Source: Utricularia gibba (lineage: Eukaryota > Streptophyta > Magnoliopsida > Lamiales > Lentibulariaceae). Taken from it: a stretch of DNA of 64,000 nucleotides. Where the stretch lies: NCBI GenBank assembly GCA_002189035.1, contig CM007990.1, forward strand, positions 496,001 to 560,000. Reading direction: 5' to 3'. The notes below the pieces were generated by a model, which searched no databases, had not been told where the DNA came from, and saw only the letters and a program-made list of their open reading frames with translations. Position 1 is the first letter of the stretch; every line of letters starts with the position of its first letter. The position numbers were made by a program, and so were the translations under genes. Below are positions 4,905 to 50,948 of the stretch, piece by piece.

Positions 4905-6075
4905 ATGGCGAATTACGACGGCGTGCTGTGGGAGACGGAGCTCAGGCTTGGGTTACCTGGGGGAGGTGGAGGAGGGGAGCCAACGGCGCCTCTTCTTCCT
5001 TCTGGGAAGAGAGGGTTTTCTGAGACGGTGGATTTGAAGCTGAATCTTGGCGCTAAGGAGATGAATTTTGAGGGGACAAGGCGGAGGATGTCAAGGATAA
5101 GGACAATCTATCTTTCTCCGCCAAGCCGCCGACCAAGTCGGTCCTTCTCCGCCGCTTTTTTCTTGTTTTGCTTTTCTTTCCTTTTTTTTTGTTTTCGCTG
5201 CTCAGTTTGACTGGGTTTGTGGTGCTATGAGATTGATTGTGCGGTTCGGTTGCAGGGCGCAGGTTGTGGGTTGGCCGCCTGTACGGTCATTCCGCAGAAA
5301 CGTGGCCGCTGTTCAGAAGAGGTCCGGCGGTGAAGCTGAGGAGACGGAGAAAGGATCTTCCGCCGTCGGAGCTCCCACCTTGGTGAAGGTGAGCATGGAT
5401 GGAGCACCCTACCTCCGTAAGGTTGATTTGAAGATGTTCAAGAGCTATCAACAGCTCTCTGATGCTCTGGGCAAGATGTTCAGCTCCTTCACCACAAGTA
5501 AGCACTGCCACCGAGCAAATCTTCAAAGACGAGTCCATGAATTCTTCTGTTTCTGCATCCTTCTCGCACACCCAGAAATAGCACTGCATATGAGAACTCA
5601 CAAGTTGAAAAGCCATTCTCTAAAAAAAAGTTAGTGACTAACTTTGGTTGTGTTCATTGGAGGTAAATGCGACCCACAAGGTATGTTGGATTTCATGAAT
5701 GAGAGCAAGCTTATGGACCTCCTTAGCAGCACAGACTACGTGCCAACATATGAAGACAAGGATGGAGACTGGATGCTCGTCGGTGATGTTCCATGGGAGT
5801 AAGTCTACAACATTGCAGATGTATAGCTATACAGATGTGTTGTATATCCATCAGCCATGAATGCTCATGCTTTCCTGCACCAACACAAAACAGGATGTTT
5901 GTTGAATCATGTAGGCGCCTCCGCGTTATGAAGACTACAGAGGCAAAGGGACTTGGTTAGTATCAAAAACCGACCTTAACCATTCGATAATGTTTATGAC
6001 TTGGGCTCACAGTGTGAGTAAAATGTTATTGTTTCAGCTCCTCGTGCAATAGAGAAGTGCAAAAGCAGAGTCTGA
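4905..6075 (+). CDS. Aux/IAA repressor, IAA7/14/16/17 type, with one-base frameshift
   Basis: Five exons: 4905-5136, 5256-5497, 5663-5798, 5894-5955 and 6038-6075. Domain I is TELRLGLPG, followed by [15 protein letters not shown]. The degron [15 protein letters not shown] opens exon 2, domain III has [17 protein letters not shown], domain IV has [17 protein letters not shown], and the tail [12 protein letters not shown] marks the IAA7/14/16/17 clade. The frame from the ATG is lost after EMNFEG at the G4 run 5072-5075. From 5078 a different frame gives [20 protein letters not shown], which splices in the usual family phase into [10 protein letters not shown]. The total coding length is 710 bases, one short of a multiple of three, so one missing G explains everything. 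With that base the protein would be 236 residues. I favour an assembly error over a dead gene because all other domains and splice sites are intact. Confidence 0.88.
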
Positions 6076-7873
6076 GTGGAAGGCGGGGAAGTCAGCTTGT
6101 TCAGTTGATCTTGCTGGTTGGGCATTCTCCTGCCACAGAACAAGATGGATGGAGCATGAATCATGATGTGTGCCTAGTGTTGTTGTACTCCCTGTTTATT
6201 AAAACTTTGTTTCCAAATGGCTATGGCTGGGCTCCCCTTGGTTTGCTGTCTTTGTGTAGTTCCTGCACTGTAACTTTCATGGCATGGTGTGTCTGAATAA
6301 TATCTTCAATTTCAACAACTCTTCCTCACCTGTAATACCACAAATATGTATCAGTTTCACAGTGTTGTGTGTATGCACTTGCCTTTGCTCTTCCCTATCT
6401 AACTCCATTATTGACTTGGAAGCTTGTTCCGGATAAAAATGTGACCTTGAAGGTCATGGGGGACATATGAACCCCACAAGTGGAGATTCCAATTAACAAG
6501 ACATATGAAGGGTGTCGAGGGAATCACTTGAATTTTATATTAGGAAACAAACTTATAAAAAATAGAAGAAAACCAGAGGGAAACAGGCCATGTGCAACAT
6601 TGAATATATTATACATGAATGGAGCAACAACTGACTACCAAGAAAAGTTAACCAGGGCAGTGGCTCAGCAATTAGCTATAACAAAAGCATCCCTTATTAG
6701 TAGGTAAGCATGTGAAAACTGACTCTGAATACTTGTAAAACTGACTGAATTTCAACAAGTAACTCATCTGCTTAAGCAGCCTTTTGTGTGCACAGTGAAA
6801 CATGAACAGAGACAAAGTTTTCATTCAGGGTTGAAAATGAGGCAAAGATTTTGGCAGATGTGAGTAAAAAACTGCATTACCTGCAGCGATTCAGAGAACC
6901 GTCAGAAGTGAGACAGGGCAGGGAGGGGCTTGGGAACTTACGCCTCTGTTGCAGCAATTAATATCAATGGGATGAGAGCCGAGCCACTCACCTGTCGACA
7001 TATGTCATCTCAGGACCCCCCTGTGCACACCTGTTGCAGTTCTGGTACATGTACAAAACTTAAAAATATCATCGTTTTCCATCCACTGCTTCCATGACTC
7101 AGTTCACAGAGTCTGGAATGTCAATCTTACGTGGTTTGAAGCTGAAACTATGTATGGTTATCTCCTTGCAATATGTTTCCATATTTTGCATATTTCCAAG
7201 TAATACTTTTTAATTAAAAGCAGGATCCATCATCTATGTGATTAGGAGGAAGGTAGCAGAAAGACAGCAAAACTGGCATACATTCAGAATTGTAATGAAT
7301 GTGGCCTCCAAGCAATGCAAGTGTGCCCGCAATTATATGACTGAATTTTGATGTACAACTTACCTTCAGATCAAACTTTCTCTGCCACCTTTAACTACAA
7401 GAAATTTACAGAAGTGAAAACAACCATATGAACAGAAGCATTCTATGCGCATGTTCAAGCAAAGAACAAAGATACCAAAGCCTTTACCCTTGTATTTGGT
7501 CTATGTTCAGTTGCAACCATGGATGGCATGGGAAAAGCCATCACCAGTTCCTTTGTATATCCTCAAAGATGACAATCCTTCTGATGGCTTCACAGAGGAG
7601 TCATCATCAATGAAGGACTTGTTCTTCCTAATCATTTCAACAATAGTATAAAATAACCTTGCACATTGACAAACAATGCAAAACAATAACCTCTGTCTCA
7701 TCTCATGGTCTGATATATGGCACAGTTAATTTAGCTTACATGCTTGCAATAGTGGGACTCCAATTCATGTGCCCAAGAGAAGTTATTATAGCACTATTCA
7801 TTCTTTGATGATAAGCAACATCACAAGGTAACAAAATGGAGAGATACAGATGCTGATAGTGAGGGTGAAATTT
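6076..7873. other. Gene-free spacer with Aux/IAA and psbW 3' ends
   Basis: About 1.8 kb of AT-rich sequence between the converging Aux/IAA and psbW genes. The first few hundred bases are probably the Aux/IAA 3' untranslated region. I found no reading frame with family resemblance on either strand. Confidence 0.5.
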
Positions 7874-8367
7874 TCAAAGGGAGAGACCAGATTCCTCATC
7901 CTCATCGAGGGAGGAAGTGTAAACGATGTAGAAGGACCAGATGAGTGCGAACACGCCCCCAGAATCCACACCAAAAGATTGTTGCTCAGTCCGAACGGAA
8001 GCCCGGTTCCCTCCGTGCTCAGCCTCTCGTCCACCAGAGCCAAAGCCGCGGTTGGGTTCCACGTCGCCGCGGCCGCGATCATCGCTGCCGCCCCCAACTT
8101 GGCGACATCGCCTTCTTGTTTAGGCTTCTTCGCCTCCACGGAGCACCTGGCTCTGCCCCCCTTGTATGGCAACGCTAGGCCTGCGAGCGTTTCATTCATT
8201 CACTCAACAAAAAGGGGAAAAGCCAATACAAAAAAAGCAGTGCCTCTCCACTGCATCAATAAGTGGCCTCTAACCGGAAACCGCGAGGGATCCGCCCACG
8301 GGGCCTTCCGGGGGACGACGACGGCGCGTGGAATGGAGGCTGAGGTGCAGGTGGATATCGCTGCCAT
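7874..8367 (-). CDS. PSBW: Photosystem II reaction centre W protein, with frameshift(s)
   Basis: Two exons, 8275-8367 (transit peptide) and 7874-8180. The mature part begins at [20 protein letters not shown], the PsbW luminal start, preceded by an alanine-rich thylakoid-targeting stretch. It should continue as one membrane helix ([15 protein letters not shown]) and the stromal tail [11 protein letters not shown]. Those halves lie in different frames, joined at a minus-strand G5 run (7956-7960 on +). One more G restores them. The exon 1/exon 2 phases also disagree by one with the best splice sites. A second missing base, perhaps in the run at 8310-8314, would fix this. Adding two bases gives 402 coding bases, or 133 residues, the length I recall for the Arabidopsis precursor. 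PsbW is a small one-helix PSII subunit that helps stabilise PSII-LHCII supercomplexes. Confidence 0.85.
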
Positions 8368-8710
8368 TTTTCCCCTTCCCTGATCGGAAAAAGCTAGATC
8401 CAATGTATCACCTCCGTGGGCGGGGAAGGGGGGATTAATATCCAACGCCAACCACAAATCAAAGATCACACTCCCAAGCTCCTCATCCACCAAGAGCCAA
8501 TCCCATGCCGCCACATGCAGTCGCATCCCTCATTACAGGGTGTATGTCATGTAATAGTGTTCAATAATTTCAACAAATAAATCCAAGTAAAATATCTGCG
8601 ACAAAAATGGGTTCTACAAAGAAACTCAGCCCTGCCTGTTATTGTCATAGAATCTGCTGTAGCCAAAATCAGATGCTGTGGATGGTCAAGAGGTAGAGAT
8701 GTTACTCTGC

Positions 8711-11605
8711 TTACTCGTGGATATTGCACTGTCTGAGTAAAGGATCATCGAAGTTGAGGTGTTTCTGCCACAAGGGCTTGAACTTTTCGATACCATTTTC
8801 AAGCCATGGTTTCTGGATTCCGTTGAAGTGGAGGACGGCTGCATGTTCGATGTCATCGGGACGGATGTTGGGGTCGTATCCGAGCCCGGTGACGTGCCAG
8901 CTCTTGTCTAAAGCAGCCGTGTTGTTGTGGAATGTTAGCCAGCCGATGCCTGTGCTGCCTGCCGCCTTGAACCAGTGATGCTCTTTGCCCTGTAGGCCAA
9001 AGGGGGTTTTCTTTTAGTGCAGCTGCAAGAGCTAAACAAGCCGAGATGATAAAGACAAGTACTCACTATGAGATGGTATTGGGCGTAGAGCATAGAAAGC
9101 CCTCGGTCTCTCCATGAAGTAAGGTTGAAAAGATTCAATCCAAAGGCCCAGGTGCAGGATGAGGGTTCGAACGCATGAGCCAATATGGGGTCAGTGAAAT
9201 TGATAAATGCATTCATTCTTGTGAGTGAGGGCTCGTCTTCGGTGCAGGCCATGGTGGCTGCATTGACTTTGCCTTTCATGTCTGTGTCCCAGAGTGGGGT
9301 TAAATCCCTTTGGACAACCACGTCATGATCAAGAAAGAGAATCATATCGAGATCAGGGAAGACATCAGGCAAAAAGAAGCGAAGGTGATTGAGCTCTGAT
9401 GTAAACCGGGGATCAGAGGAGCCCTCTCCCTGCAGCGACACATTATAGAACTCAGCAAGCCAATGCCAATTTTCTATGCTCTCCACTTGCACTACGGATT
9501 TTCCTGGGGGGTTTGATATGAACCACATCCTTATTGCAGGGAGGTTGAGGGAATCTGTTATGATATGGAATACCATACTCTCAGATCCCTGCAAATTAAC
9601 AAAAAGAGGGCATCAGTTTAGTGTTGGTGGAGGAAGAAAGAGGGAGAATTTACTCACGCTGGAAGAAGAGATAGTTGAGTTCACAACAACTGCACAAGCC
9701 AGGACATTGTCTGAGAAGATGGAAAAATGATAAAGATCAGAATTTGTCGATTTTCCTTTGTAGGGGAGACTTCTTTTCTCGATATCCAGAGCAAAATATT
9801 CTGCAGTCAACCTCATAGAGAGACAATGATAGCCTTTGGTGATGCTTCTTCCACCTAGGGTTCTGAGAAAATATTCTTGATTCTTGTTTGCAGTGATCTG
9901 TGATTCTGCTTTATAAATCATCGCACGAAGTTTCTTTACTATTGCGGAGCAATCAGGGTAGATGCGGCCAACTTTTGATACGGTGTATTGCAACACTTTC
10001 TTCTTGTGCATTGAACTGAGAATATGAACTAATGAAGCGTTTTATTCAATGTCATTGAAAACCCAGTGTAGGCAGCGTGTGTGCTGTATCTAAGGTGTGA
10101 CTAGTGCAGTACCTTCGTGACATATTCGAATCTTCAGTGGTTCGTCTTATGGCTCTTTCGAGGTCCTTTATCCGAAGCTTCAACTCTTTCACAATAGGAG
10201 ATCTGTTGTTTGGCCCCTGCTCTGCCATATACAAGTATTCTTTGGCCTTGAGCACTAGATCTTTCATTTCTGCAATATTCTCCTCCAACTTTCTCCTTGA
10301 CCTCGAGTGGACGACTCTGTTTTCTGCTTCCTTTAGGGAAACATACAAAAAATTAAAGAAATCAACATGCAGCAAAATAAGGAGCAATGAAGTAGAGCCT
10401 TGAAAATGTTGACATTGAGAGTCTGGAGGTGATGCAACAGTCTATTCACAAAAAGGTAATGAAAAAAAACCCATGCGCCTTAAATGTGACATGCTTTCCA
10501 TAGTTGTTCTGAAACTCATTGATGCCATCTATCTCAAGGCAACAATCTCGTATTTATGCATATGACATTAGCATACCCTAAAATCAGATTCTGCAGACTC
10601 GTCCTCTTCTAGATTTTCTTCATCATCTCCCTTTCCCAGTTGTCTAGGTGCTGAAACAATAGGGTAACGCAAATGAAAAAAAATATATCTTTGGAAGGTT
10701 TTCCTGAACATATCTGTATGAAATTGATAAAAAGTTACCACTCACCTACATTCTCTGAAGATGTTTTCAAACGATCTCCAAACACTAGTTCAGGCTCTGT
10801 TTTGTCCTCGATTTCTTCCTGGAATCACAATTGCATCACACAAGAAAATAATAAAAGGCACAGCTTCACTGAGTGGAATTTAGTTTACAATGTCTACTTA
10901 GACTCAAACAAGAGTACCGTACCCCTGAATGAAATACTGCCAAAGCTTCAATCTCCACCTTTTCTGCATCATAATCTTTGTGCTGCCTAGTTTCTAAACT
11001 TGAATAAAGGGGAAAAGAAAACGGCCCTTAAGGTCCAACAGATCAGCATCAAATCCCAAAAGACTCCAACTCACCATTACTTCCCGAAGAGTCTGGTACA
11101 TGATCTTCGAACACCAGCGGAGGTACCTCTTTCTGATCTTCCATTTCTTCCTATAAGCGCAGAATTATTTCATAATGATCTAGGAAAAAAAATAGTACAT
11201 ATATGATACACTGGATCTTCAAGACAAACCACTAAATCCGTACCTGTTGCTCCAAATTAAGCACTCGAGCCTCCGCTCTTTGTTTCTGTGCATAAACATT
11301 TCATGAGAGATCACTATTCAAATTTCTGTAAAAGAACCAACAAGTATTCCGCAAGCATAAAAAAAGACAAAACGCGTACAATGAAATGCAAATCCTCAAT
11401 AGCGTGTTCATCGACTGCACAGCAAGAAAAAACGCGGATCAGGTCGCTAGCTACAAAACTACACACTAATCATAACCGCAAGAATCATCAGCGTACTGCG
11501 AGAGTGAACACTTTTAAGCCTTCGCAGCAGACAGATAGGGCCAAAAACAGAGGAAAACAGAAAACAGAGGATCAACGTCCTCGAGAATTTTCGAGGCGCC
11601 TTCAT
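8711..11605 (-). CDS. GT8 galacturonosyltransferase, GAUT5/6-like
   Basis: Eleven exons: 11497-11605, 11380-11414, 11244-11285, 11075-11150, 10923-10993, 10746-10818, 10577-10650, 10113-10330, 9658-10015, 9067-9588 and 8711-8989. They total 1857 bases (618 residues) with all phases consistent. The N-terminus is a type II signal anchor (TLILCFLFSSVFGPICLL) and is followed by an acidic stem with two similar exon pairs starting EEMED and EEIED. The GT8 domain has LHCLSMRLT-like sequence, the metal-binding DxD as FLDHDVVVQRDL, and the late block KAAGSTGIGWLTF...LDKSWHVTGLGY. It ends in QCNIHE. GAUTs act in the Golgi on pectin homogalacturonan backbones. The CTWAFG and IGWLTF signatures suggest the GAUT5/6 clade, where DHD in place of DDD appears normal. 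The exact donor specificity is inferred. Confidence 0.9.
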
Positions 11606-11699
11606 CAACCAACCGCCGCCAACTCAGGATTTCCAATCCCGAGACTTGGAGAAGAGAAATGAACGAACCGCCGGCGTAGGAGATCGGAGACTAGGGTTT

Positions 11700-12050
11700 T
11701 GAATCGCTTTCCGATTTCCTCTATCTGAGAGCGCGGGGATGGCGGAACAGAGAAGGTACGGCATCCTCCCTTTTTATACGCATGCATGGAACGTGAGCAA
11801 CCGTCGCTGAGTGATCATGATTCATGGCCAATCCGTACTTTTCACTGGGCCCCATCTAAAATATAAATAAATACTTTTATTATAAATAATCCAACAATGT
11901 TACTAGTATAGGCCGACCCGGGCCGGGCCCAAACAATCACAGCCCATACTATATATAATTATTCCGGCCCATTATAAGCCCAACCAGTAACCTTCACCTG
12001 TATGTATATATTCTCTCCAATGCGCTACTGCTACTGAAATACAACCTTCT
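11700..12050 (-). promoter_or_regulatory. Upstream region of the GAUT gene with GGCCCA motifs
   Basis: This lies between the GAUT start and the pfkB stop. Between about 11910 and 11985 there is a cluster of site II-like motifs: GGGCCCAAA, AGCCCATA, GGCCCATTATAAGCCCAA. Such TGGGCC/T elements are bound by TCP-type factors in many plant housekeeping promoters. Their assignment to GAUT transcription is inferred from position only. Confidence 0.4.
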
Positions 12051-13792
12051 TCAGAGCGCTACCACATCCTTCATCTGCGCAGCTTCAAGCTTTGGAAGAA
12101 GATCAGCAGCCACTTTCTGAAAGGAGACGCGATGCAGCTGAGGGGCGTTTCCATTTGCGTGAAGCTTGGAGAGCAGTGTGACATCTGCTGTGTTCAAGTG
12201 CTGCTCCAGCAACTCATCCCAAAACTCAACATCCTCGTCGAGATTCGATGCTGCGATGAGTTCCATGACTTGGTTCAGCTTAGCAACGTTCCTGCCGGCA
12301 CCAACACCCATGGCAGTGGATGCACCAACTGCATTTGCAATGGCTAGTGTGTGCACCAATGGCAGCTTGTGTATGTATCCGAATGCAATGGCGGCGACGA
12401 AACTGTCGCCGCAGCCGACGGTGTCGACGATCTTCACCTGCAGAGATTGATCAGATTGATACTCAACAGTAGTGAGTTTGTTTAGAATCGTTGAAGGAGG
12501 GATCAGTACCTTAAAACCAGGGGCACAGGATATGGTTGAAGGTGTGATGATGACAGAGCCTTTAGGACCCATCTTGATGACCACCCATTTGGTTCGTTTT
12601 CCATTGCTGAGAAGATACTTTCCTGCTAAAATGGGATCTTCTATGCCTGTCAATGCTTCAGCCTGCAAGGGGGGAATGAACAAAACATTGGACATGCATA
12701 TTGTTGTTAGTTATCCTTGTTGTTCTTCAGTTTGCACCTCTTCAGAAGTCAATAGCAGAACATCACTGAACCGGAGGTACTCTTCTAAAGCCATTCGTTG
12801 CTCATGGCTGCCGGACATCAGGTGCTTCCCTCGGGGTCCAGGGTCGAAAAATATTGACACCCCGACATCAACAGCATAACTCAGGGCAGACAGGAGCAAA
12901 TGAGGAGACAATTCATCAAAACCATATCCATTGCAGAATATTACTTTTGATTGTCTTATAGCCATCTTTGCATCATTTGAAAGTGTGCTCAGCCAACTGA
13001 AGGTAGGCTCCTTGCTGAAATCAGCTCGGCTGACAAGAACCGGAACATACCATTAGTGAACAAACTTTCCAATATGTGAAAGTACCAATGAAATCACCTG
13101 CAAAAACCATGCTTTTGTAGAGGATCCACAAGTACCCAGCACAGAAGCGTTTCATATGCCATGGAAGAGGTATCGGCATCATTCTGCTCACTCATTTCCA
13201 CCATGCTTATACCTTGATCATCGAGCACATCCAGGAGGAAGCGACCGTAGGCTTCCTTACCAACATGGCCAATAGTAGCAACACGCATTCCTAGTCTAGC
13301 TGCAGCAATGGCCATATTGCAGTTGCCGCCAGCTTCCCAGTATTCCTATCAGCAGAGATAACAACACTATTGTGTCTACTACACAGAAGTGACTTCAAAT
13401 GAAATCAACACTAAATAGGAATCATTCAAAACCTTATCAGGAGGAGACTTGGACAGCTGTTCCAAATAAGCTTTACGTTCATCCAAGGGCTTAGGAGGCA
13501 ATTTGGGTACACTAAGCACAACGTCAACACACAAATTCCCCAGCGTAGCGACGTCGATATCCTTTCCCGAGAACGATCCAACCCAATCCTCCTCCACCCG
13601 CCCATAGCAGGGGACTGTCAAACAGTTCGAGCGGTGCCTCCGCACAGGGATTTCAACCCCTCTACATTTCCACACCAAAAAATTACGTAAATACTCATTT
13701 TTGGAAGGTAATCTAGGGTTTTGAAAGGATTCCGGATGCGGAGAGAAGAGGGCATAGTCGTATTTCACTCCCAACGCCACGTGACCTTGCAT
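12051..13792 (-). CDS. pfkB-family carbohydrate kinase (At4g28706-like)
   Basis: Five exons: 13433-13792, 13098-13345, 12738-13029, 12510-12662 and 12051-12437. They total 1440 bases (479 residues) with consistent phases. After a variable N-terminus the ribokinase fold starts at DVATLGNLCVDVVLSVPKLP. It continues with the substrate-binding WEAGGNCNMAIAAARLG, then FFDPGPRGKHL and LLLTSEEAEALTG. The catalytic and anion-hole motif is DTVGCGDSFVAAIAFGYI, where the final Asp is the expected base. The family form GCGDS replaces the more common GAGDS. By resemblance this is the ortholog group of Arabidopsis At4g28706. The sugar substrate is not known to me, so no specific reaction is claimed. The first ~45 residues contain no motif I recognise, and their targeting role is unclear. 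Confidence 0.88.
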
Positions 13793-14352
13793 CTACGAAC
13801 GGGCCTGCCGCAACGCTGAGAATAAAAAAATCTGCAACGGAATTCCTGAAACAACGAAGCCAATCGAAGAAGAAGAAGAAGATGCAAAATCAAAACTGGG
13901 AAGCTGTTCCAGGTTTCTTCACTTAGAGTGGATCACAAGACGTCAAACATGACAATTACACGGATAGATACTTTAATTAATTAATTATCTATTTTAATGA
14001 TTTAATCCAATTAAAAATTATTTAACATTCAAATTTTATAATAAATATTTAAAATATCACTGTATTTTATAATATGTGAAATAATAGAAAAAAATAAATT
14101 AAACAAAATTTATGTGAAAGAATTAAGTATTTTTATTATTAAAAAATCGTTATTTTTTGAGAAATAATATGGGAAAAAAAAATCCTCTTACGCCTGTCCA
14201 AGTTTGACTTCTTTTCTGCGAGTGTTGAAGATAAGGTTGATTTTTCAACCCACATGCTGGGAATGGGATGATTGCTTTGTGTATAAATAAGAATGCAGGG
14301 GCGGTAGCACCGCAGAGGGAAGAGGAAGAAGGAGGAGGAAGAGTGGCAAGAG
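13793..14352. other. AT-rich spacer
   Basis: This spacer lies between the pfkB start and the protease-inhibitor start. The divergent promoters must be here. From 13960 to 14160 it is nearly pure A/T. The stretch 14270-14350 is a purine-rich leader (GAAGAGGAAGAAGGAGGAGG). No gene is seen. Confidence 0.4.
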
Positions 14353-26936: not shown

Positions 26937-29900
26937 ATGAGGGAATTGGCTATGGCGGAAGCTCATGAAAGTGAAGCAAGGCTAGTGAATCCGTGGTATT
27001 TTCACTTGCAGAAGCTTGGACTTGAGCTGAAATGCCCTGTCTGGTGATTGATTCTCACCCTTCTCTGTTTCCTATCAAAATGACACCGTTTTTTTATAAT
27101 CCATCTTCCTGTTTCTTTTTTTTTCTCTTTTGATGCGTAAATAGTATGAAGTTGCTGAGCAAGCCCGTTCTGCTTCCTTGTAATCACTTGTTCTGCGGGT
27201 AAGAAATCTGTTATCTCCGGCGGATTCGAAGTTTTCTTGAAGGTGTTTATCTATATGTCTTTGTAATTGATATGCGCAGTGCATGCGTTCCACGATATTT
27301 TCATAATTGCCCTGCTTGTCAGCAGCATTACGCTGATCAAGGTGCGACTTTTAGTTCAAGGTTGTCTCTGGATATGCGTTCGGAATATTGTAAGAGTAAC
27401 ATTTCGCATGCTGCAGAAATAAGGCACGCTTCCTACATGGAAGAAATCATTAACACCTACAGGAGTTTGGAGGCTACATTCAGCTCAACCATCCTGCCAT
27501 TTTTATCTGCAGGTAAAGGAATGGCGAATGTAGAATGGTTCTTGGTACATGATTCATGGGTAATGTCATTGACTTTAAGATCTTATGAAAATTTCAGTTG
27601 ATAAAATCGCAGATAAACCTGGTGAAACAAAATCTAGAGTAAGAGAAGTTCCTACTATTGCCGTTGAAGGTAATATTTCTGGGATTCAGGCTACACAAAT
27701 GTCTCCAGGCGACTCGTTCCCAGATTCTTCGTTTAAGGATGACTCCAACGAAGAAACGTTAAAATGGAAAACCCCTCAAATCAAAGTGGAACATCGTGAG
27801 CAAGCAATCTCTCCTCTTCAACCGGAAAATATTAGTTCACGCAGCTTAATGAAGGTATGACTCGTTCCATGTCCTTGTATTGGTTTGTTTGTGTGTTAAG
27901 CACTTCCACTCATTCATTGATAGTTTTTAAAGTAAAGCTGACTCTAATGTTTGTTTTGCGATTCATCTCAACTACTGCAGAGTACAAAAAATCACAGAAT
28001 CAGGAAATCTGGCAGAGCCATATTGGATACTACAGCGGATCCTATGGATGATGAGGACACGTGCAATATGAGGGAACCCAAAAAGCACAAGAAGCTGAAC
28101 TGCGAGTTGCCTAGCAAAGATGCTGCTTTCAGGAATGATGAAGGCAGGTCTAACAAAGATTCTCTCGTTACTTCAACTAGAAAACTTTTTAATGACTCGG
28201 ATCTCACTAGAAGCGCATGTGCATTTTGCCAGTCTTCAGAGACAACTGATGTAAGTCCTCCTGTTTCTCTATCGATCCAGCATTTCACTCTCTTTCATTC
28301 ATACAATTGATGGGACGAATATTCCAAGTAAAGCTTCCCATGCTTAGTATTCACAATTGTACTTTGGCTGGCACCAGGCTACTGGACCGCTTCTACATTT
28401 TGTGAATGGAAGAGAAGTGGTAATAACTGAAATCAACTCCCCCAAAGTGGTTACAGCACACATCAAATGCATAGAATGGTATGTTGAATATGAACTTTGT
28501 GCTTCAAATTGTTAATTTAATCACTGGTTGCCAAAATTATTATGCTTTCCCTGGAGCTAGAAAGCTGCAGCAATGACCGATGTATGTGAATTATGTTCAG
28601 GACGCCAAAGGTATACTTTGCTGGTGAAAAGATTAAGAACTTAAAATCTGAGCTTGCTCGTGCTTCCAAGCTCAAGTGTAGTGTTTGTGGGTTAAAGGGA
28701 GCATCGCTTGGGTGCTTTGCAAAGACTTGCTGCAGAAGTTATCATTTTCCCTGTACTCTGGAAATCCCCAACTGCAGATGGGATCCTGTAAGTCACACCA
28801 TACTCTGGATCCTCTGACCGTGAAACTTTGGCTGTGACTTCTGAATGCGTTTCTAAATTGCAGGCTAAGTTTTTGATGTTGTGCCCCTCTCACAAACATT
28901 TGACTTTTCCAAATGAGACCTCCAACCCTGAAGAGCATGAGAATGAAGCTATATGCTCGTCCCAAGAACAGTAATGCATCTTTCTGCCTCGTACTTCCTT
29001 TTTGCATTCTCCTATCAGTAGATGTGAACTACTTAAAACTGCAGTACGACTGTTTCTCATCTCTAAGATCTTTAAACGCAGAACATCTGAGCAGTCAACT
29101 TTTTGGGCTTCACTTCCTAATGGACGGCAAGAATGGGTTTTATGCGGCTCTTCCCTATCATCAAAACACAAAGTAGTTTTTTCTGTTTGCAGCAACCTCA
29201 TTTTCTTTTTCAAACAAGCTCATGATGATCTGTGCTGTTGCAGAGTTTGCTTAGAGAATTTGCTGCACGGTGTGGTGCTACCTTGTCAAATTCATGGACC
29301 CCAAATGTCACTCACGTGATTGCCTCCACAGATGAAAATGGTGCCTTCTGTAGAACTCTAAAAGTCCTTATGGCCATTTTGAACGGAAAATGGATTCTCT
29401 CCATTGATTGTAAGCTTCCTCCAATGCTTCACATCTCTTATACTCAAATCCATCTGCTCACTTCAATCCTTCTTTCCAAGGGGTGAAGACTTGCCTGGAC
29501 AAAAACCATCCTGTGAACGAAGAACCATTCGAGATCAACATCGACAATCACGGCATCCGGGATGCCCCCAAAACAGGAAGACTAAGAGCACTAAGCAATG
29601 TAAGCAGACAACATTCCCTTCTACTGTTTTTCCCAAACAAACTCCCTCCACAAAAGCCTCCTTGCTGCTTTCACAGGCTCCAAAGCTCTTCTCTTCCGTG
29701 TGCTTTTACTTCCATGAGGACTTCGATCCATCCTACAAGAGCGATCTAGTGGATCTAGTCAAAGCTGGAGGAGGAAGCATCCTCGAGGAAATCCCCCTCC
29801 AGAAAACTACCCACAATCAGCGCCTCCTGCGACATTCATCGTGTACTTCAGTGAATGCAGCAGGGAGAGCGCAGCAGAGGGAATGGTTAAAAGGAGGATC

Positions 29901-30020
29901 TTGCAGACGTTGGCTGAATCCCAGAACGCAGCACTGCCCAGTGATGCCTTTCAGTTCATCCCGCACACGTGGATTCTGGAATCCATAGCTGCTTGTAGAG
30001 TTCCCGCTTCTGCAAGCTAA
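26937..30020 (+). CDS. BARD1: BARD1/ROW1 RING-ePHD-BRCT protein, with one-base frameshift
   Basis: Thirteen exons: 26937-27043, 27145-27198, 27280-27341, 27417-27512, 27598-27854, 27981-28250, 28378-28478, 28601-28787, 28864-28970, 29019-29172, 29244-29409, 29481-29599 and 29677-30020. The N-terminal RING is LELKCPVCMKLLSKPVLLPC, NHLFCGAC and HNCPACQQHY (C3HC4). A Lys-rich linker follows, then an extended PHD (ACAFCQSSETTD, HIKCIEW, CSVCGLKGASLGCF) and two BRCT repeats. In the last exon the frame shifts at the C5 run 29793-29797. One more C yields IPPPENYPQSAPPATFIVYF and a proper second BRCT ending FIPHTWILESIAACRV. Coding bases sum to 2024, again one short; with the extra base there are 674 residues. 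NPWYFHLQKLGLELKC marks BARD1 rather than BRCA1. It acts in homologous repair and, in Arabidopsis, WUSCHEL repression. Confidence 0.9.
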
Positions 30021-30548
30021 ACCCTTTGTTCCACTTTGCAAGTTCTGATTATTTGGGATTAAGGGTTTGCTTGGTTGGTATTTAATATTTAGTAATATTC
30101 ATTATATTAAAATGTTTTCTATTAATATTTTTTTATATTAATTATATAAAGAAAATATGAATTGTGAATAATGCTGTTTTAATACATTAAATTCACATAG
30201 AAGTTGAGAATTTTATAAATTCATATATGTGTTTAATTAGAATTTGGAAAATAAATATATTTATTTTATATTTCAAATGAAATATATATTTTTTTACTAA
30301 ATTTTAATTTATGCTTGATAATTATCAAATATTAAAAACAATTTTTATAGTTATATGGTTTAAAATAAAATGGATTTAATTTAAAGGTTTTTTTTACAGG
30401 CTGTCGCGGGTGTACGGAACGAGTAACGGTCACTTGCTTTAAAGTGTATGGGGGCGATTCTTCCTCTGATTCTCTTCCGCTGTTCCACTCGCTGAGGAAG
30501 TTGAGATTTCTTCTTCGTTTTTGTTTGATTGATTCTTTGAGCTGAGGT
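30021..30548. other. AT-rich spacer and JASON leader
   Basis: It is very AT-rich from 30080 to 30380, and the JASON leader and promoter occupy the remainder. No gene is seen. Confidence 0.4.
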
Positions 30549-37477: not shown

Positions 37478-38810
37478 ATGTTGATGGCGTCCGAGGAATC
37501 ATGTGTTCGTGCTGGTGGGATTGGGTTGGAACTTGGGCTCGAGCTAAGCCTGGGTTGTGGGAAGGCCAAGGCTAAGGTCCCTGAGGTTCAGGAACAACAA
37601 GCGAGGATTTTAACCGCGAAGGATTTTGGTTCCTTGGTTTCTTCTGAGGTTTCTTCCTCTTCGTCTTCCTCTTCGGTTACCAAAGCTATTGGACCAGGCA
37701 CAAAAAGGAGCGGGGAGTTTCCATCTTCATCTCCACACCGGTAATCCCCCTCTTCATAATTTCTGAACTTTTTTTTTTATTACCAGAGATGTTTCTGCAT
37801 ATGTCTCAGAAGATGAAATTTGGATTCTCTGAATAGACATAGGAAGTTATCTCCTCATTGCATTTACTTTAATGGCTTTGGTGTTGGTAATGAGGATGAT
37901 TTATCCCTAAAGCACTTCTATGCCTCTGTATCTCACATTTTTCATGTGCATTTAGAACCCTGGGAATGAAAATGATCATTTCCAGGGATTCTACTGCGCT
38001 TTCTTGCGCCCTCAGTATAATTCTGTTAAGCAGATACAGATGCTCCCCTAAATGGATTAAATTTCTAAGTTCTATTACTAAGTTTTTTTTAAAAGGCATT
38101 CACTGTAGGGATTTAGTGTCAATAGATGGGATGATTAAGCTTCTTCTTCAATTTCTTGAAGCAGTCAGGTTGTGGGATGGCCTCCAGTGAGAGCCTACAG
38201 ACTGAACAGCTTGGTGAGCCATACAAAGCCACCTGCTACAGAAAACTTCTTGCTCAAGAGTGAAGATGGGGACAAAAGCATTTCAAATAAAAAATCACTG
38301 TCTTATTTTGTTAAGGTTTCCATGGATGGGATTCCCATTGGAAGAAAGGTGGATTTACTTGCTCATGACTCCTATAAGGCTTTAGCACAATCACTCGAGG
38401 AAATGTTTCGTCCCAGTCACTACCCAAGTGATAATGGATTCTTAGGGCCAAGTGAGGAACAAAGAACACTGGGTGGCCTCTCTAATTTCATACTGACATA
38501 TGAAGACAAAGATGGAGACTGGATGCTAGTTGGAGATGTTCCTTGGGAGTAAGTCTTCTATTACTGTACCCTGTTAATGCTGCTTGCTTGCTTCCAGCTG
38601 ATGTTATGTCTTGTGTTTCTCAGGATGTTTGTAAACACTGTGAGGAGACTCCGGATCATGAGGTCAGATGAGGCTAAGGGAATAGGTCAGAATACTTCTT
38701 CTTCCTCGAGTAGTTTTTGTTTCTTATAAACTAGAATGTCTGTAAATGCTTCCGGTCACCATTGCATTGCAGCTCCCCCATCTGGTGATATGAGGACGAG
38801 ACAAGAATGA
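37478..38810 (+). CDS. Aux/IAA repressor, IAA12/13 (BODENLOS) type
   Basis: Four exons: 37478-37740, 38165-38548, 38624-38685 and 38773-38810. They total 747 bases (248 residues), in phase. Domain I is the extended GLELGLELSLG. Next comes ARILTAKDFGSL, a signature of the IAA12/IAA13 group, then a Ser-rich run. The degron [19 protein letters not shown] opens exon 2. Domain III has VKVSMDGIPIGRKVDLLAHD and domain IV has [20 protein letters not shown]. It ends APPSGDMRTRQE. BDL-type Aux/IAAs restrain MONOPTEROS/ARF5 in embryo and root-pole patterning. That role is inferred from family membership. ATG at 37478 is followed two codons later by a second in-frame ATG. Confidence 0.9.
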
Positions 38811-39332: not shown

Positions 39333-39773
<441 letters not shown>

Positions 39774-41199: not shown

Positions 41200-42000
41200 C
41201 TGTGCGAATGGCTAGGGATCATACTCCTTTTCCGAGATTCCAAGTAGAACTGCAAAGGAAGAGAGCATCCATGGCTATGCCTTCCCAAAATGGCCATGTT
41301 GGGAACAGAAGGCTGATCACGGACACCTTTTTCAAGATTCCACCAAGAACAGAAAAAGGAAGGGCGTCAACAGCTCCACCTCTTTACAATGGCAATTTGA
41401 TCCAAGCACATCCATTAGCACCATTAAAAGATCGCGTCTTCATGTGAAATTCCATCGTTTCACATTGCCAGTAGTTGTGCACCACAGCTTTGGATCATCG
41501 CCCTTTTTTTGAAGATTCGAAGAAAAACTGCAAAAGCAAGAGCATCACTGGTTATGCCTTCCATAAACGGCCATTTGATAAAAGCCTGATCACAAGCCCC
41601 TTTTTCAAGATCCCCCCAGGGAGGGCATCCACAGCTCCACCTTTTCAAAATTGCAATTTGATCACTAAGAGTGGAAACTTAACTACTGGAAATATGACAC
41701 CTTTTTTCAAGATTCCACCTATAAAAGAAAAACTCAGAGCATCAATTGCTGTATCTCTCAAAACTGGCACCTTTGATCTCAATACCACCTTCCGCCAAAA
41801 AAAGCAATGGGAAGAGCATCCACAGCCGTAAATCTACCTCTTAATCTAATTGCAGATGCATACGTATTGGGATCAACAGCCCTAATTTCGTAAAATCCTT
41901 TAGTAACCATAGGGCTGACCACAAACCCTGTTTTGAAAATCCCACCAAAAACTGCAATGCAATGACCTCACCTGCTCCAAATCACATTGCCCAGCAATGC
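41200..42000. repeat. Degenerate ~100-bp tandem repeats downstream of the cupin gene
   Basis: A motif close to CCTTTTTCAAGATTCCACC recurs near 41228, 41328, 41502, 41601, 41703, about 41790 and 41927. Each is followed 20-60 bases later by AGAGCATCCACAGCT-like and CAAAATGGCAATTTGATC-like words. Spacings are about 99-102 bases or roughly twice that, so I infer about eight diverged copies of a ~100-bp unit. No copy keeps a long open frame, so I treat it as an old non-coding minisatellite. Boundaries are approximate. Confidence 0.75.
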
Positions 42001-42293
42001 AAAATACGGCCATCACAACCAGCCAAATGATTTCCACTCGACGAAGAACCCAGCGCTAGGAGCCTCATTACGCGATCGGATACATGAATTACACCGCCGA
42101 TTCGAGAGTTTACGTTGATCTATGAAACGTCTACTCCTCGGTCTTCCCTTCCAAAGCCCCCAAATCTCCACAAGGGCCTTCCGGTTCCCTTCACGCTCCC
42201 GGCTCCAGCGAGCTCCTTCCCACTTCTCATGGGCTGTTCATTAGTACAGGGCCACGAAATTGAGCCCTCCCCAATGCATCTACCATTGTTGGG

Positions 42294-42318
42294 CCGGAGC
42301 TGCGTGGAACAGCTCCGG
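42294..42318. repeat. Perfect 9-bp inverted repeat with 7-base loop
   Basis: CCGGAGCTG (42294-42302) pairs with CAGCTCCGG (42310-42318) around CGTGGAA, with further G/C pairing outside. It lies in a GC-rich 42110-42420 stretch with no recognised gene. Confidence 0.85.
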
Positions 42319-42419
42319 TCCAATTGGATCCCCCAGTGGGCCCCAGAAGAGGGGAATTTACGGAATTGGGCCTGACGCCCATCTCTGCCAGCTCCACGTG
42401 AAAATCTTAAAGAGGTAAT

Positions 42420-45388
42420 CATTACAGCAACTGTACGTACGACCGTTTTATTTATATTATTTTAATATTATCCCACGACGTACAATCTTTATGTCAAAAC
42501 CATTAGTGTCCCTTTCGTAGTTAGCTGTCACAAATGATTATTTCGATATTTTAAATTATGTCATGCTCCAATATTTTAATCCTCCCAAAGGCCCACAACT
42601 GCACACATTAATGTCCACACCATTGTTTTTTAAAAAAAAAAATTAAAAAAAATCTTATTCCCCTCGAATGTTACCCTAAAGTTTTTTTATCAGTAAATGT
42701 TTTTTTTTTATTTTTAACAATAAAAAATTATAAATATGTTGTTTTAAATACAAAATTGAAATAATATCAATATATTATAATTATTTCAATTATTGAATAT
42801 ATTGACTTGTAAATCTAATGATTAGTATTTGACTTAATTGAAACCTTTAATATTTCTTAAATTATAAATAATTTAAATTGTAATAACCTAAATGTATTTA
42901 GACATGAGACACATAACATAATTTATAATATTTATTTTAATACTATTAATATTGTCGACGAAACCTACCCAAAGAATTAAAATATGGTTAGGAATACTGA
43001 ATATAATATCCACTATTCAAATCAATTTCGTATCTAAATCAATATCAATTCAATATTTGTATTCATAACGAATAGAGGATGGTGATCCCTACACATCAAT
43101 TGTTTAGAAACACAACTTGGGTTATTTTCCTTTCAATGTTGGTTGTAAATGGATGGCTCCACATCATCACCCCATTGATGGGATGAATGTGATTGGACAT
43201 CATGTGATCCATCCTTGCCAACTAGACATTTTTCTTATTTACATAAATAGCCCATAGTTTTTTGTGTGGATCACATTTTATATTCCATCTAAAATTATGT
43301 ACCACATTTGCTATTTCAGTCATTTGCAAGGGTGCCCCCATGCAAAATGCGTCATCAATCCACTTTCCACCGTGGGTGCTGTAATAACCATGGAATTGAC
43401 ATGCTGTCTTAGGATGGAAGTAAATGTCCGTACAGATGGCTATGGTACAGATTATGTTGCAATTAAAATGGAGTTAATGGGACGCGCGCCCGTGCACTTA
43501 ACTTTTTAAATGAAGAATGACATTGGGAATGAACGTCACGTTAGGATGCAACATATGGCTATTGAATTTTCCATTTATGGAACCAGTTGGCGCGTCAATA
43601 AATGGCAATTTTGATTTTGGACGCGAGGTCCCTTTTGTTCGAGCTATGTAACAAGTAGCTATAAGAAAAAAAAGTTTGCAATTTGTCACTTGATGGGCCC
43701 ATTTCATGTCATCCTAGTATCATTTAGAAATTTGATTATCCTGTGTAAAAGATGATATTGTTACTATTTCTTGGATGGGACCTTAACTTGCCCTTAATCC
43801 AAAACATATCATATTGGTTTCATATGTTTGTACGATATTGTATGTTTTGAACACATAGATTCTTGTCTACAAGTTGCAAGCATTTTGTGCATTGTCAAGT
43901 CTACCCTTGGAGATTTGGGAATCTCGTTTCGTGAAAAGCCTTTCAAATGGGGGTAAATTCGTATAATAACAAAAACAGTGGTTGGTCCAAATAGGGTAGC
44001 GTGGTCCTAAGGGGGGGTAAAATAGGCAATTCAGGGGAGGATTATTAAAATCAGATACACAACTCGAGGATGAAGGTAAGAAGTCGATGGCGCGTCAGGC
44101 TGCGGTTGGCCAGCGGTTGCGCAGTCGGGAATAAGGAGAATGAATGAATGTGAATGTTCGTCCCTTTTCGCTGTCCGAGCGTGGTTTTGGGGAGCAGTTC
44201 TCGCAATGGGTGATCGGAAATTGCGTACGGTACCGGTCGGAGACTAGTCAAAGCGGCACCCAGCTTGCAACGGCGGGTACAGTGTTGACTCTTGCCGGAA
44301 AAGTCGGGTTCTGAGAGGAATCAGGAGAATGTAGACTTGGAGCCACCTTTTTCTCTGCGTGCTCCGGTTTTGGATACCCAAACTGGAGATCACTTTGAAT
44401 CACACATTATGGATTTACTCGTCCTCTCCTTGATTGGTGAATTCTGGAATTAGGTATCAGAGAAGCAAAAACCATCCCACCCACCGCCCACGTGCGCCTT
44501 TTGAGGTGAGATTTTGGCCATGGAGTCCCTCACAGAAGAGCTGCTTGCCTAACTGCTCTTCCCGGCCAGAAACGTCAAGCGAGCTTTAAATATCACGCAA
44601 ACACAAACGCAGCTCCGGGGTGGCGTTTCCGGCGAAGGGAAACTCTTGCTTATAGCAAATCCCACATCGCCCGGGAGGGATTGGGGCGAGCGCTAGCATT
44701 TGGCATTGCTGTGAATCGGACGGCCAGGAGACCGCCAAGGTGGATAATGGGCGATACGATGCCATGTGGCAGCATCCCATTCGTCCCACTCCCCCAGACA
44801 TTTTCATTCGTCAGCTTCAACCAGACAACTCAATGGAATTTTATTACATTCCAAATTGAATTGTAATTTCGTATGACCTAATTATTCCTTTTACTGGAAT
44901 ACTTTTATTTACTTAGAATTACTATTAAGTAAAATAAATTAGCCATCAAAATATTTTTGAAATTATTTTTTAATTCAAAAAAATGTGAGTTTCACATATC
45001 ATATATCTTATTAGCATAAAAGATATTTTTTATTAAAAATTATTATTATTTTTCAGCATTTCATCAAAATCATCTTCAATAAAAATCATTCAATCTTACG
45101 TAAAATAATTTCTTTTATATTTGTATATATGGGATATATTAAAATATAAACTGTAATAAATGGAATTGGAAATCTAGTGGGGGTTTAGGTCATGACCTGG
45201 ACATGGGCCCACCATCCTATCACATGCATCTTTCAATGAAGCCAGAGGATGGTATCTGGACACCACCACTTGCTTACCTTCCACCGTCTATTTAAACCTC
45301 CCGTACACCCTGTTCTTCTTCATCCTCAATTTCGGACAAGGAGCAAACGCACAGGGATACAGATTTTTCTCTCCGGAGGGGGGAAAAG
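42420..45388. other. Three-kilobase spacer upstream of YUCCA
   Basis: It is AT-rich from 42440 to 43100 and 44850 to 45170. A moderately GC-rich stretch at 44030-44830 has no frame I recognise. The YUCCA promoter is at the right end, with TATTTAAACC near 45290. Nothing else is supported. Confidence 0.4.
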
Positions 45389-46705
45389 ATGCTGGGGTTC
45401 GAGGAAAGTGGGGTTTCTTGCAGGTGTGTGTGGGTTAACGGTCCGGTGATCGTCGGCGCAGGGCCGTCGGGGCTGGCGGTGGCGGCGGGGCTGAGGGAGC
45501 ACGGTGTGCCGTTTGTGATACTGGAGCGGGCAAATTGCATTGCGTCTCTGTGGCAGAACAAGACATACGACCGTCTGAAGCTTCATTTACCTAAGAAATT
45601 CTGTGAGCTGCCCGGAGTGCCGTTTCCGGGTGAGTACCCGGAGTATCCTTCTAAGAGGCAATTCATCGAATACCTGGAGAACTACGCGGAGCGCTTTGGC
45701 ATCAACCCTCGGTTCAACGAGTGTGTTGAGTCGGCGAGGTTCGATGAAGGGTGTAACTTATGGAGGGTGAAGACGGTTTCCCCTGACGGCGGTGTGGCGG
45801 AGTATATCTGCCAGCAGTTGGTGGTGGCTACCGGCGAGAATGCCGATCCAGTTGTGCCGGAGATTGAGGGCCTGACGGAGTTCGAGGGACAAGTGATTCA
45901 CGCCTGCGATTACAGGAACGGCGAAAGTTACAGAGGAAAGAAAGTTCTTGTTGTTGGGTGTGGAAACTCCGGCATGGAGCTTTCCCTTGACCTCTGCATC
46001 CACAACGCGAAACCGGCCATGGTTGTACGGAGCTCGGTGAGTGCATACCTTATCAGAATCCTCATTCTATTCTCTCTGTCGCTCTTTCTTTTTTCGCTTT
46101 TCTTCTAACTCTCTGCTCACCAGGTTCATGTATTGCCGAGAGAAATCTTTGGAAAATCCACCTTCGAAGCCGCCATGCTGTTTCTCAGATGGCTTCCTCT
46201 GTGGCTCGTAGACAAGATGCTGCTCGCTCTTGCATGGATTATCCTCGGAAACGTGGAAAAATACGGTCTTAAACGTTCTCCGATCGGCCCATTGGAGCTC
46301 AAAAACACCCAAGGAAAAACCCCTGTTCTCGACATCGGCTCTCTGCAAAGAATCAAATCCGGGGAAATCCAAGTCGTCCCCGGCGTAAAAAAGCTCTCTC
46401 CAGGGTCTGCAGAGCTCACCAATGGCGAAAGGCTGAAAATCGATGCCGTGATTCTCGCAACTGGGTACCGTAGCAACGTCCCCAAGTGGCTACAAGCAGA
46501 TTTCTTCACAGAAAACGGGTTCCCAAAATCCCCATTCCCAAGCGGATGGAAAGGAAAAGATGGTCTCTACGCGGCGGGGTTCACACGGAGAGGGATCGCC
46601 GGTGCATCTGCCGATGCGCTGAGAATATCACAAGACATCGTCCGAATCTGGAAGAGCGACATGAAGCAGCAGAAGGGGCGAAGACAAATCTCAACACTCC
46701 GGTGA
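45389..46705 (+). CDS. YUC: YUCCA flavin monooxygenase (auxin biosynthesis)
   Basis: Two exons, 45389-46036 and 46124-46705, giving 409 residues in phase. The FAD-binding motif is [17 protein letters not shown], then [20 protein letters not shown] and the FMO-type [13 protein letters not shown]. The NADPH-binding motif is [18 protein letters not shown], and the late [17 protein letters not shown] is the C-terminal ATGY motif. YUCCAs convert indole-3-pyruvate to indole-3-acetic acid, the rate-limiting step of the main auxin pathway. The start [16 protein letters not shown] suggests the YUC3/5/7/8/9 (RCVWVNGP) group rather than YUC1/4 or YUC10/11. It is likely cytosolic or ER-associated. No frameshift is seen despite GC-rich sequence. 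Confidence 0.93.
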
Positions 46706-48451
46706 CGGCTGATTCCCACCATTCTTCCATTTTTGTTCATAGATAGCATTAGGGATTCAGAAAAAAACTACTAGCTAGATTTAAACTCCTCCCCCCCCCC
46801 CTCCGGCGAGTTTTTGAATTCCCGCCTGTAAATCAGAATAACTTGGTTCTTTTTCTTTTTCCACCCGATTGCGATGGCTTACTTTTGAGGAAAGTCGTGA
46901 GCTCCAAAGATGGAGTTGGTGTGTTTCCCTATCTCAAGCGGTCCCTTATCTTATCATCACGATGGCAACTGCAAAACTGGGGCTCCGAGAGCGAGAACGG
47001 GGACGGCCGAGGGCATTTCCGGCAACAGAGAAGACATTCCAGTACACTGTCACCCCCAGCAGACCGCACACAGTACCGCTTCTTAGGTGGAAAAGGCCAT
47101 CGGCGTTGGGCTGTTTGGGCGGATGCGAATGCGCTTGTGGATCCCGTCCTCCGCCTGGGCCTGCGGCGGCGGCCGGCCCCATGCTCGTCTCCTCAAAACA
47201 AATTTGGGCACATTGCCCATCAACCGTTCACTCGTTTAATCATCTATCTAATCTTTTTAATATTTATTTAGAATAAATTATTTAATTTTCTAAAAACTGT
47301 TTTATTATTGAATACTAAAAAATTTTATTTTAAAAAATTTAAAACTTTTGAAACCATTTTTTAATATTAAAATATTATCTAATTTAATCATTACAATTTT
47401 ACGTTTTATCTTTTCAAAAAAAGTATTAATACAAAATCAGTATATATATTTAAAATTATACATATATTTTACGAAAATATATTTTATATAGTAAATATGT
47501 GTAATATTTCGAACCATCGTTCCTTTTTATCTTTGATTTATTGTATTTAAATAAATATATATTATACATTTTTAATTAAAAATAAGTACATATATTTTAC
47601 AAATTTAGGTTTAAAATAATGCTATATATGATAGTATATTTAAAATAGATAAAAAGCTTACTCAAATGCGAAAAAAAATATATTTAAATTACATAAATAT
47701 TTTATAAATAATGAAGAGGATGTACCTATCAAACTGATATAATTATCAACGAGTTGTATATTTAAAATAATAAAAATATATATATAAAGGTGTAAAAGCG
47801 AACAAAAAAATAATATTTTTTATGGAAGCATTTTGTTTTTGTTGTTGAACAGTGACATCCCGATAGGGTGGCCATCCTGGCACGTTACCTGTCCCTGTCA
47901 CGAAACCGCTGCACCACCTTCTAAACCGTTGATGCGTCACGTGACCCTAGCCTAGGGTGGTGTGTGCCATAATAATGCCCTAGGGTAGGGACGACCAATT
48001 TATTTTTTTTAATTAATTTATATTATTTGAAAAACAGAAATGGAAAGAGGAGAAAATGGGTTAGTTACAGGGATACAACGGAAGCAGAGGAGAAAACGCC
48101 GAAGAGCACCAGGGTACCGGCGTCCTTGCCTCTACGTTTCTCGTGTCGCCGGAATGTATCCACGCCGGGGGAGATTTTTTTGAACCGGCGTCGGCTTGCG
48201 TGCGTTGAAAGGATTCACTGTTTTGAGGTAAGGAAAGAGTTCGGGTCTTGTATTTGGAGGGTAGGAGTTTCGGCGAACATGCGGTATCCTGTATTGTCAC
48301 TGAAATTGCTTTTTTATCTGAGGGATTGTTGTTTTTTTGTGATTGAAGAATTGATTGGGGTTTGAGGGTATCTTGGAGGTGCGGCGTTGGATCGGATTGT
48401 CTTGTCTCTAGTAGGAGCTCATTGCAGTGGGAAGTGAGGCTTAGGCGACTA
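46706..48451. other. Spacer between YUCCA and TRM genes
   Basis: A C11 run sits at 46791-46801 in the probable YUCCA 3' region. The GC-richer 46860-47230 keeps a 142-codon open frame (46843-47271) without family resemblance. From 47270 to 47830 it is nearly pure A/T. From 48020 it should be the TRM leader. Confidence 0.4.
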
Positions 48452-50948
48452 ATGGAATGCTTAGAACCTTTGAAGAAGCTTTATAGAAGCGTCGAGGATG
48501 CATTCATCTCCGGACTGTATGGTGCAAGAAGTGGTATTACAAATTTGTTTTCGCTGTGCTTCATGTAGATGCGTCTTCTTGATGCTTATTAGTTGTTGTT
48601 ACTTGCAGAGTACATTTAAATGCGATAGGGACGCTCCTCCAAATGTCCGTTAACATGTTGATCGTTCAGGAGACGTCTAAGGAAGCAGACGCTTGGGGAA
48701 ATCAGCCTAAACTTGTGACCAAACTGATGGGGCTTGACGACTTTCCCACGGCAGAGAATGATAAGTCGGGTTATTCGCAGATTGCGTCGAGTTGCCATGA
48801 ACCAGAGAACAGATTTGCAGGAGGCACTGATCAGAATGCATTCGACGATGCCCATGATACATGGAAGCGATCATGGAAACCGTCACCATGTAAGGGGAAG
48901 CTTGGAGAGTCTGAAAGTGAGAAGAGGATGATGCATGTTGTTGGGCAGAAGTTCTCCAAAGCAAATAAGTTATCTACAGATGGAAAACTTTGTCAGTTAA
49001 AGCAATTTCAAGATGCAATGGGGTTTTGGGTTCCAGCAATGATGTATTCTTCAAGTGTATGCAAGAACCAGATTCAGTTTCTTCTGAGCAGCGTAAAAAT
49101 TGGTGGTCTGTTCCTTCTCCAGAGCATCGGCGGATCACTGTTCTTTATCCCTCGAGGATTTCCGACCACCGCAACTTTCTGCAAAAGGATGCGTTTTTAG
49201 GCCGAATTCCATCAGATAAATTCAGTACTGGTAGTTCCTGTTCTGCAATCTCGAGTGATTGCGAGATCCCCTCACAACCAACCCGGATAGTTGTTTTGAA
49301 ACCAAGAACTGGGAACGGAGATGGTGGGGGAGTTCCCACTGGTTCTCCAGATGTTGAACCAGGGGAACTGCCTTGTGATACACAGAATCAAGGGCCAGGG
49401 GAAAATACAGATATAACAAGAGAACGGGCACATGCATATGATAGCATGCTTAGCAGAGATGAAGCTTCGACTTCTTCATTTTGCAGCGTGGGTGAGGATA
49501 TCCCAACACCCAGTCAGATATCTTATTCCCCGAAGGTTTACCAGGAAGCAAAGAAACGTCTCTCTGTTAGGTGGGCTAGGATGACATCCAATGAGACATC
49601 CCAAGAGCCAAGATCGGATCTGAGAAGCACCAAGTCGTTGGGCGAGTTGCTTTCTCTTTCTGAAGCAACAGCGGCTGCAGTTCCTGGAGAAAATGATGGC
49701 TCGTATCCAGAAATGGAGGACCCAGAGGGCTCTGTAGTTCTTCAAACGGAAAATGCAGTTGAATCTCCAAGATATCTCGTGAGGTCAAAATCTGTTCCTG
49801 CAACATCCCCGGAGTTCGGAATAACCCTGGATTCGGGCATTTCAGTCGCGAAGCAGGGAATGCAACACAAGAAAGAAGCCAAGGGAAAAAGTGCGAAATC
49901 ATCCTTAAGGGGTTTGATTTCTAGTTTATTTCCCTTGAAAACCAGAAAATCAGGTATGGATAAAGCCTGCAATTCCATACCTGATGATGATGCCTCATCT
50001 TTTCCTGAGGAACCTTGCAAAACAAATGAATGTTGCACACTGAAGAAGCCTACCGTATCTGGAGGACATCTTCCAGAGTATCTAAAGCCTAGCTTGCAGG
50101 GTACATGTATTGTGCTTTACAGTGTTCTTCTACATTCTTGTTGATGATTTCTTTGTTCTGGTGTTAACATGAGTTCTTCAAACTCAGATGGCAAGACTTC
50201 CATCAGCTGGCTAGGGCCGAACCAACTTGGTAAATCACCAGCCATTGGAACCATTCCTCGCACCATATCAGGGGACGAGCCCTGCAGGTGCACGGTCACA
50301 TCTCCTCTTGCCGTAGAGTGCCCCAGTACTCGAATCAAGACGGAAGAATTGGATTGGGTTTCATATGCCAAATTACTGCTAACTGTTTCTGGTCTCCTAG
50401 AACCGAGCTTGTCCAGCTCTTATCCTGAAGGATGGTATTCACCTGAGACTCCATTGAACCCGCTGCTTCGAGATAAGTATATTGAAATGCAAGATAAGAA
50501 GGAGATGATACCCCAGGGAGCGAGAAGCCGAAGCCAATCAACCAGAGCTCTTGTTTTCGACTGCGTAAATGCAGCGTTGTTGGAAACGGCAGGCCCTTGG
50601 TTGGAATTGGGTCATTGCAACTCAGACAGGGATGGGTCGCTCCCATTAGGTGACAAGGTCTTGGCACTTCTGAACTCATGGTTCTCCAGAGAAGCTCTAC
50701 GGATGTCAAATGTGTGCGAGAACAGCGACAGTGTTCCTATGGAGATGGCGATGAAGGATGAGTTGATCAGTGGAAGGTGGACGGATCAGCTGAGAGTTGA
50801 GACAAGCATCATGAACAAGGATATCACAGGGACGTTGCTGGAGGATCTTGTGCATGAGGCTGTCGTTGACATGGCTTGTAGAGTTGAGCAAGACGGGGGC
50901 ATTCTCCTGAATGCATCCAAGCTTTGTCATTACAACCCTTTCCTGTAG
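48452..50948 (+). CDS. TRM/DUF4378 (LONGIFOLIA-like) protein, with one-base frameshift
   Basis: Three exons: 48452-48533, 48611-50100 and 50188-50948. The start is MECLEPLKKLYRSVEDAF. Family marks are WGNQPKLVTKLMGLDDFP (VARLMGL-type motif), QKFSKANKLSTDGKLCQLKQ, RITVLYPS, TRIVVLKPRTG, and a C-terminal DUF4378 block with ELDWVSYAKLLLTVSGLLEP, RALVFDCVNAALLE and LLEDLVHEAVVDM. TRM proteins bind TON1 and PP2A at microtubules and affect cell shape. The frame breaks at the G4 run 49020-49023; one more G joins QFQDAMGVLGSSNDVFFKCM. Coding bases sum to 2333, one short of a multiple of three, and 777 residues follow if corrected. The exon 1-2 junction (acceptor GCAGAG) is the least certain part. Confidence 0.85.

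Follow-up and report, generated by a model that had tools for sequence, protein, structure and literature searches.

In the assembly of the plant Utricularia gibba, four unrelated genes within a 64-kb stretch of DNA (the window, corresponding to C2:496001-560000) lose their reading frames at runs of four or five G or C, and we put at about 0.94 the probability that these four breaks are errors of the assembly consensus in which one base was dropped at each run. One base would be dropped during consensus calling at G or C runs, and the drop would be more frequent the longer the run. The fault is confined to G/C runs and is genome-wide, with A/T runs of 4-7 bases in intact coding sequence unaffected. 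As we infer from the broken frames together with the genome-wide pattern, the true DNA would carry an extra base at each site, and the genes of the plant itself are probably intact. The frame breaks at G/C runs are almost certainly sequencing errors and not a real biological feature.

Each of the four runs is one base short for its reading frame, and the printed letters agree with the positions at which an earlier, sequence-only reading had placed them (Table 1). The breaks read GAGGGGACAAGG in the Aux/IAA gene, CGCCCCCAGAA in psbW, AATCCCCCTCC in the BARD1-like gene and ATGGGGTTTTG in the TRM gene. In all four genes, family sequence extends upstream to the run, and translation makes the downstream part readable in the frame that is reached by adding one base.

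Table 1. Positions in the window of the four genes, their frame breaks and the G runs of psbW exon 1.
Feature	Position	Strand	Basis
Aux/IAA gene (IAA14/17-like), five exons, break at 5072-5075	4905..6076	+	frames; Pfam AUX_IAA; homeolog in frame
G4 run, one base short	5072..5075	+	frames and homeolog comparison
psbW gene (approximate ends), break at 7956-7960	7861..8387	-	Pfam PsbW; PDB PsbW chains; homeolog
C5 on + strand (G5 on coding strand), one base short	7956..7960	-	frames and homeolog comparison
Two G runs of psbW exon 1, at which a second base may be missing here and in the homeolog	8300..8303 and 8310..8314	-	
BARD1-like gene, start provisional, break at 29793-29797	27126..30021	+	BRCT matches; human BARD1 alignment
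C5 run, one base short	29793..29797	+	frames
TRM gene (named by the sequence-only reading; start approximate), break at 49020-49023	48440..50949	+	open frames on both sides; homeolog in frame
G4 run, one base short	49020..49023	+	frames and homeolog comparison

That a single added base would rejoin recognizable family sequence had been claimed for every one of these genes, and the claim holds by Pfam for AUX_IAA, PsbW and the BRCT pair, a single unknown residue X having been put at the break of each joined product before the search, and by open frames and the homeolog for TRM. The joined Aux/IAA product matches AUX_IAA with an E value of 3.5e-40, and the coding sum of 710 previously given for this gene fits as well, our draft model of 709 falling one base short at a splice junction. 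The joined psbW product matches PsbW (E 5.8e-38), and plant PsbW chains from solved photosystem II structures (PDB) align straight through the break. Between exons 1 and 2 of psbW there is the same phase problem in the window and in the homeolog, where the length is equal; a short run at either of the two G runs of exon 1, or another donor site, could explain it. For the BARD1-like gene, the match to the BRCT pair (E 2.8e-14 and 9.9e-12) covers only the C-terminal part of the joined product, while the piece upstream of the break can be aligned with human BARD1 as far as '..KPKPDS' = '..IPXPEN'; a DNA search of the assembly with this gene returned only itself, with no near-identical or homeologous copy. 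The frame of the TRM gene is open downstream of the break, and its homeolog is 71-73% identical. Apart from psbW exon 1, one lesion was seen per window gene, and the downstream frames are open and, where tested against a family, family-like. Conserved flanking frames are expected of living genes, and the possibility that the window genes are pseudogenes, with several lesions and relaxed constraint, was rejected on their single lesions and open downstream frames. Elsewhere in the window, positions 38496-38556 and 1559-1621 resemble Aux/IAA exon sequence, with 83-92% DNA identity to the IAA gene, and judged by this likeness the window may hold more Aux/IAA genes.

A copy of the window block derived from whole-genome duplication lies at C451:2260001-2320000, and this copy is in frame at IAA, psbW and TRM. 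At IAA the homeolog reads GAGGAGGAT against GAGG-GGAC in the window, at psbW CCGCCC against CC-CCC, and at TRM ATAGAAGTT against ATGGG-GTT. The situation is reversed at a YUCCA gene, where the window reads GTCGGCGCAGGG and the homeolog GTCGG-GCTGGG, the one-base loss in the homeolog falling at about C451:2304491 (about 44491 in L018-L023 joined), inside the near-invariant GAGPSG motif. A scan of all frame-breaking gaps between the two copies gave clear coding breaks at IAA, psbW and TRM, plus the homeolog YUCCA. The homeolog TRM has another frame difference at its extreme C-terminus, which may be a further loss or a tolerated change. The homeologous block also contains a subtilase gene (C451:2294978-2296333) with no C2 counterpart among the matches listed, which hints that the window's side lost this gene once the block had been duplicated.

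The assembly (100.09 Mb, 516 contigs) was then surveyed by gene family, exon by exon and in six frames, a search in which an error of one base shows up as a match divided between adjacent frames. Twenty-one further breaks were resolved in four unrelated families, namely GRAS (14), HSP70 (3), KCS (2) and Exo70 (2), across many contigs, and every one of them is a single-base loss, with no gains. Break positions, set by eye from conserved protein motifs, carry an uncertainty of about one codon; so placed, 18 of 21 lie at a called G/C run of at least three bases, whereas about 8% of positions touch such a run. The called run at the break has six bases in six cases, five in two, four in five, three in five and fewer in the remaining three. 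None of the breaks is clearly at an A/T run, although one short-run event (L047) could equally be the loss of a base from an A run. The same short motif is broken in unlinked genes: RPGGPP or its equivalent is interrupted in three DELLA genes (L050, L051, L052) as well as in the GRAS genes L049 and L055, and the sister GRAS genes L058 and L062 have their breaks at one and the same C6 run. Some split matches were set aside as introns or insertions and not one-base shifts, these being GRAS splits at C4:1155380, C1:1229400 and C375:104030 and KCS splits at C1:7843340 and C213:993530. UDPGT was left out of the event count because its model matches C-terminal parts only and cannot reveal frame breaks, and tubulin and subtilase because introns and insertions split their matches.

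Run length and base class were compared between broken sites and 56.9 kb of intact GRAS, Exo70 and KCS coding sequence, with intact genes only in the denominators. For runs of at least four bases in these families, 12 G/C runs are broken against 241 intact, and no A/T run is broken against 405 intact (lengths 4-7), a difference with a Fisher p of about 9e-6. By called G/C length, the ratio of broken to intact runs is 6/4 at six bases, 1/39 at five and 5/198 at four; for runs of 6-7 bases, six G/C runs are broken and four intact, against none and 20 for A/T (p about 4e-4). Paralogues share motifs, so the events are partly dependent and these p-values overstate the case. The sequence-only reading had noted no frameshift in A/T runs of the exons it followed, and in the families surveyed none is clearly at such a run, L047 being ambiguous. 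From the family tables, the break rate can be roughly estimated at one per 5 kb of coding sequence. The longest G/C run of the window by far is a C11 at 46791-46801, after the YUCCA gene; long G/C runs are thus not always cut to below seven.

A technical cause predicts a defect that is genome-wide, runs in one direction and rises with run length, and all three were found, which strongly supports such a cause. The errors are of one base at runs, their rate climbs with length, and they strike unrelated genes throughout the genome; the shared sign and base class, the increase with length, the scatter over the genome, the shared motifs and the conserved flanking frames together are characteristic of G/C-run under-calling in the consensus. 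A shared technical cause had earlier been preferred over four independent inactivations, and the 21 additional losses in unrelated families, unidirectional and length-dependent, reinforce that preference. Some observations stand on the other side. Many G/C runs of 4-6 bases, and the C11, are printed without visible harm. In two GRAS loci outside the 21 (L090 and L091), which may be genuine pseudogenes, the frames are rejoined only by a shift in the opposite direction or by two losses. Additionally, a 31-kb contig (C241, L066) and part of another (L067, C304:2235061-2241060) are 99.5% identical over 3.45 kb with two one-base gaps, and may represent an alternative haplotype or a recent duplication; they share an HSP70 break, as they also would were it a real mutation. 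This pair served as a control comparison, in a region that consists of partly broken HSP70 copies, with more broken HSP70 remains downstream.

That HSP70 break, common to two diverged contigs, is among the points in favour of real mutation, by which slippage at G/C runs would have inactivated the genes, perhaps through weak mismatch repair or loss after whole-genome duplication. Homopolymer slippage is common as true mutation, and whole-genome duplicates are present that could be lost freely. However, gains would be expected beside losses, and all 21 resolved family events are losses; there is no clear event at A/T runs, though these are more numerous; three DELLA genes would have been struck at one motif; the remainder of each frame is conserved, usually with one lesion per gene; and a rate of roughly one break in 5 kb of coding sequence would leave a sizeable fraction of the gene set broken. 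We therefore consider real mutation very improbable. Still harder to credit is that there is no error in the printed DNA, the cell itself recovering the frame at G/C runs through slippage in transcription or programmed ribosomal frameshifting. The conserved downstream frames and the constant sign of the shift would suit such a mechanism, but no slippery heptamer or stimulator common to the sites is evident, the runs at the events span six bases down to 1-3 in unrelated genes, and an assembly fault is the simpler account, for which no cellular mechanism is needed. We know of no precedent for frame restoration on such a scale in a nuclear plant genome. The broader proposition, in which the DNA is as printed and the plant lives with or corrects many G/C-run losses, for example by slippage in transcription, is likewise given next to no credence.

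An unlikely variant of the under-call explanation is a technical fault in which one base with G or C on both sides (such as GG-A-GG) is dropped, so that the run arises from the loss. In the intact copies of IAA, psbW, TRM and YUCCA, a different, non-run base stands inside the run, so that the missing letter cannot be shown to be the run base, and letter by letter a single interrupting base may have been lost at these four sites; for run under-calling to account for the difference, the broken copy must have gained a longer run. The objection is weak, because an aligner would in any case set the gap against such a base. With the copies about 20% diverged, one would expect the other copy to carry an identical run of at least five only about one-third of the time. 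Furthermore, so steep a rise with called run length is typical of homopolymer under-calling, the reading that we prefer.

Under consensus under-calling, the finding is ordinary biologically and useful as a warning. In the U. gibba assembly, a frameshift that lies at a G/C run does not count as evidence that a gene has been lost, and truncation would be wrongly read into three DELLA genes, psbW, BARD1, an Aux/IAA gene and several HSP70 and Exo70 genes. The three DELLA genes in particular, which appear frameshifted at RPGGPP or right beside it, would be mistaken for a loss of DELLA function, and "losses" of DELLA, psbW and HSP70 in this assembly are not to be trusted without read support. Before gene loss is inferred in this small plant genome, such sites need checking against reads or transcripts; two RNA-seq data sets of U. 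gibba, PRJNA595351 and PRJNA354080, are named in PMC10663240.

The U. gibba PacBio assembly is described as ca. 100 Mb with a Unitig_8 of 6.8 Mb (PMC8333044) and as an HGAP assembly at 88x (PMC5793159), and the platform behind the sequence analysed here appears to be PacBio CLR with HGAP/Quiver; among the papers searched, none mentions homopolymer errors in the U. gibba assembly. The breaks resemble those known from PacBio CLR HGAP/Quiver consensus, in which single-base indels at homopolymers frameshift genes before short-read correction (PMC5964635; PMC4853030). A Plasmodium HGAP/Quiver assembly had 25,352 indel differences from the reference, and 5,857 after short-read correction, most of them at homopolymers (PMC5964635), and in Xanthomonas the Quiver frameshifts at a G9 run were mostly gone with better chemistry (PMC4853030). 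The errors in U. gibba differ from those reported for HGAP/Quiver in being G/C-biased, in occurring at runs as short as 3-4 bases and in having been resolved only as losses, whereas in the Plasmodium report it is chiefly long tracts of an AT-rich genome that are at issue. With 454 pyrosequencing they have in common run-length miscalls that rise with run length. Homopolymer errors of 454 data are expected alike at A/T and G/C and in both directions. In contrast, the losses here are G/C-specific, and contigs of 6-8.5 Mb are ill-suited to 454 assembly; of the two data types that the sequence-only reading had offered, long reads, apparently PacBio with HGAP/Quiver, are thus a likelier source than pyrosequencing.
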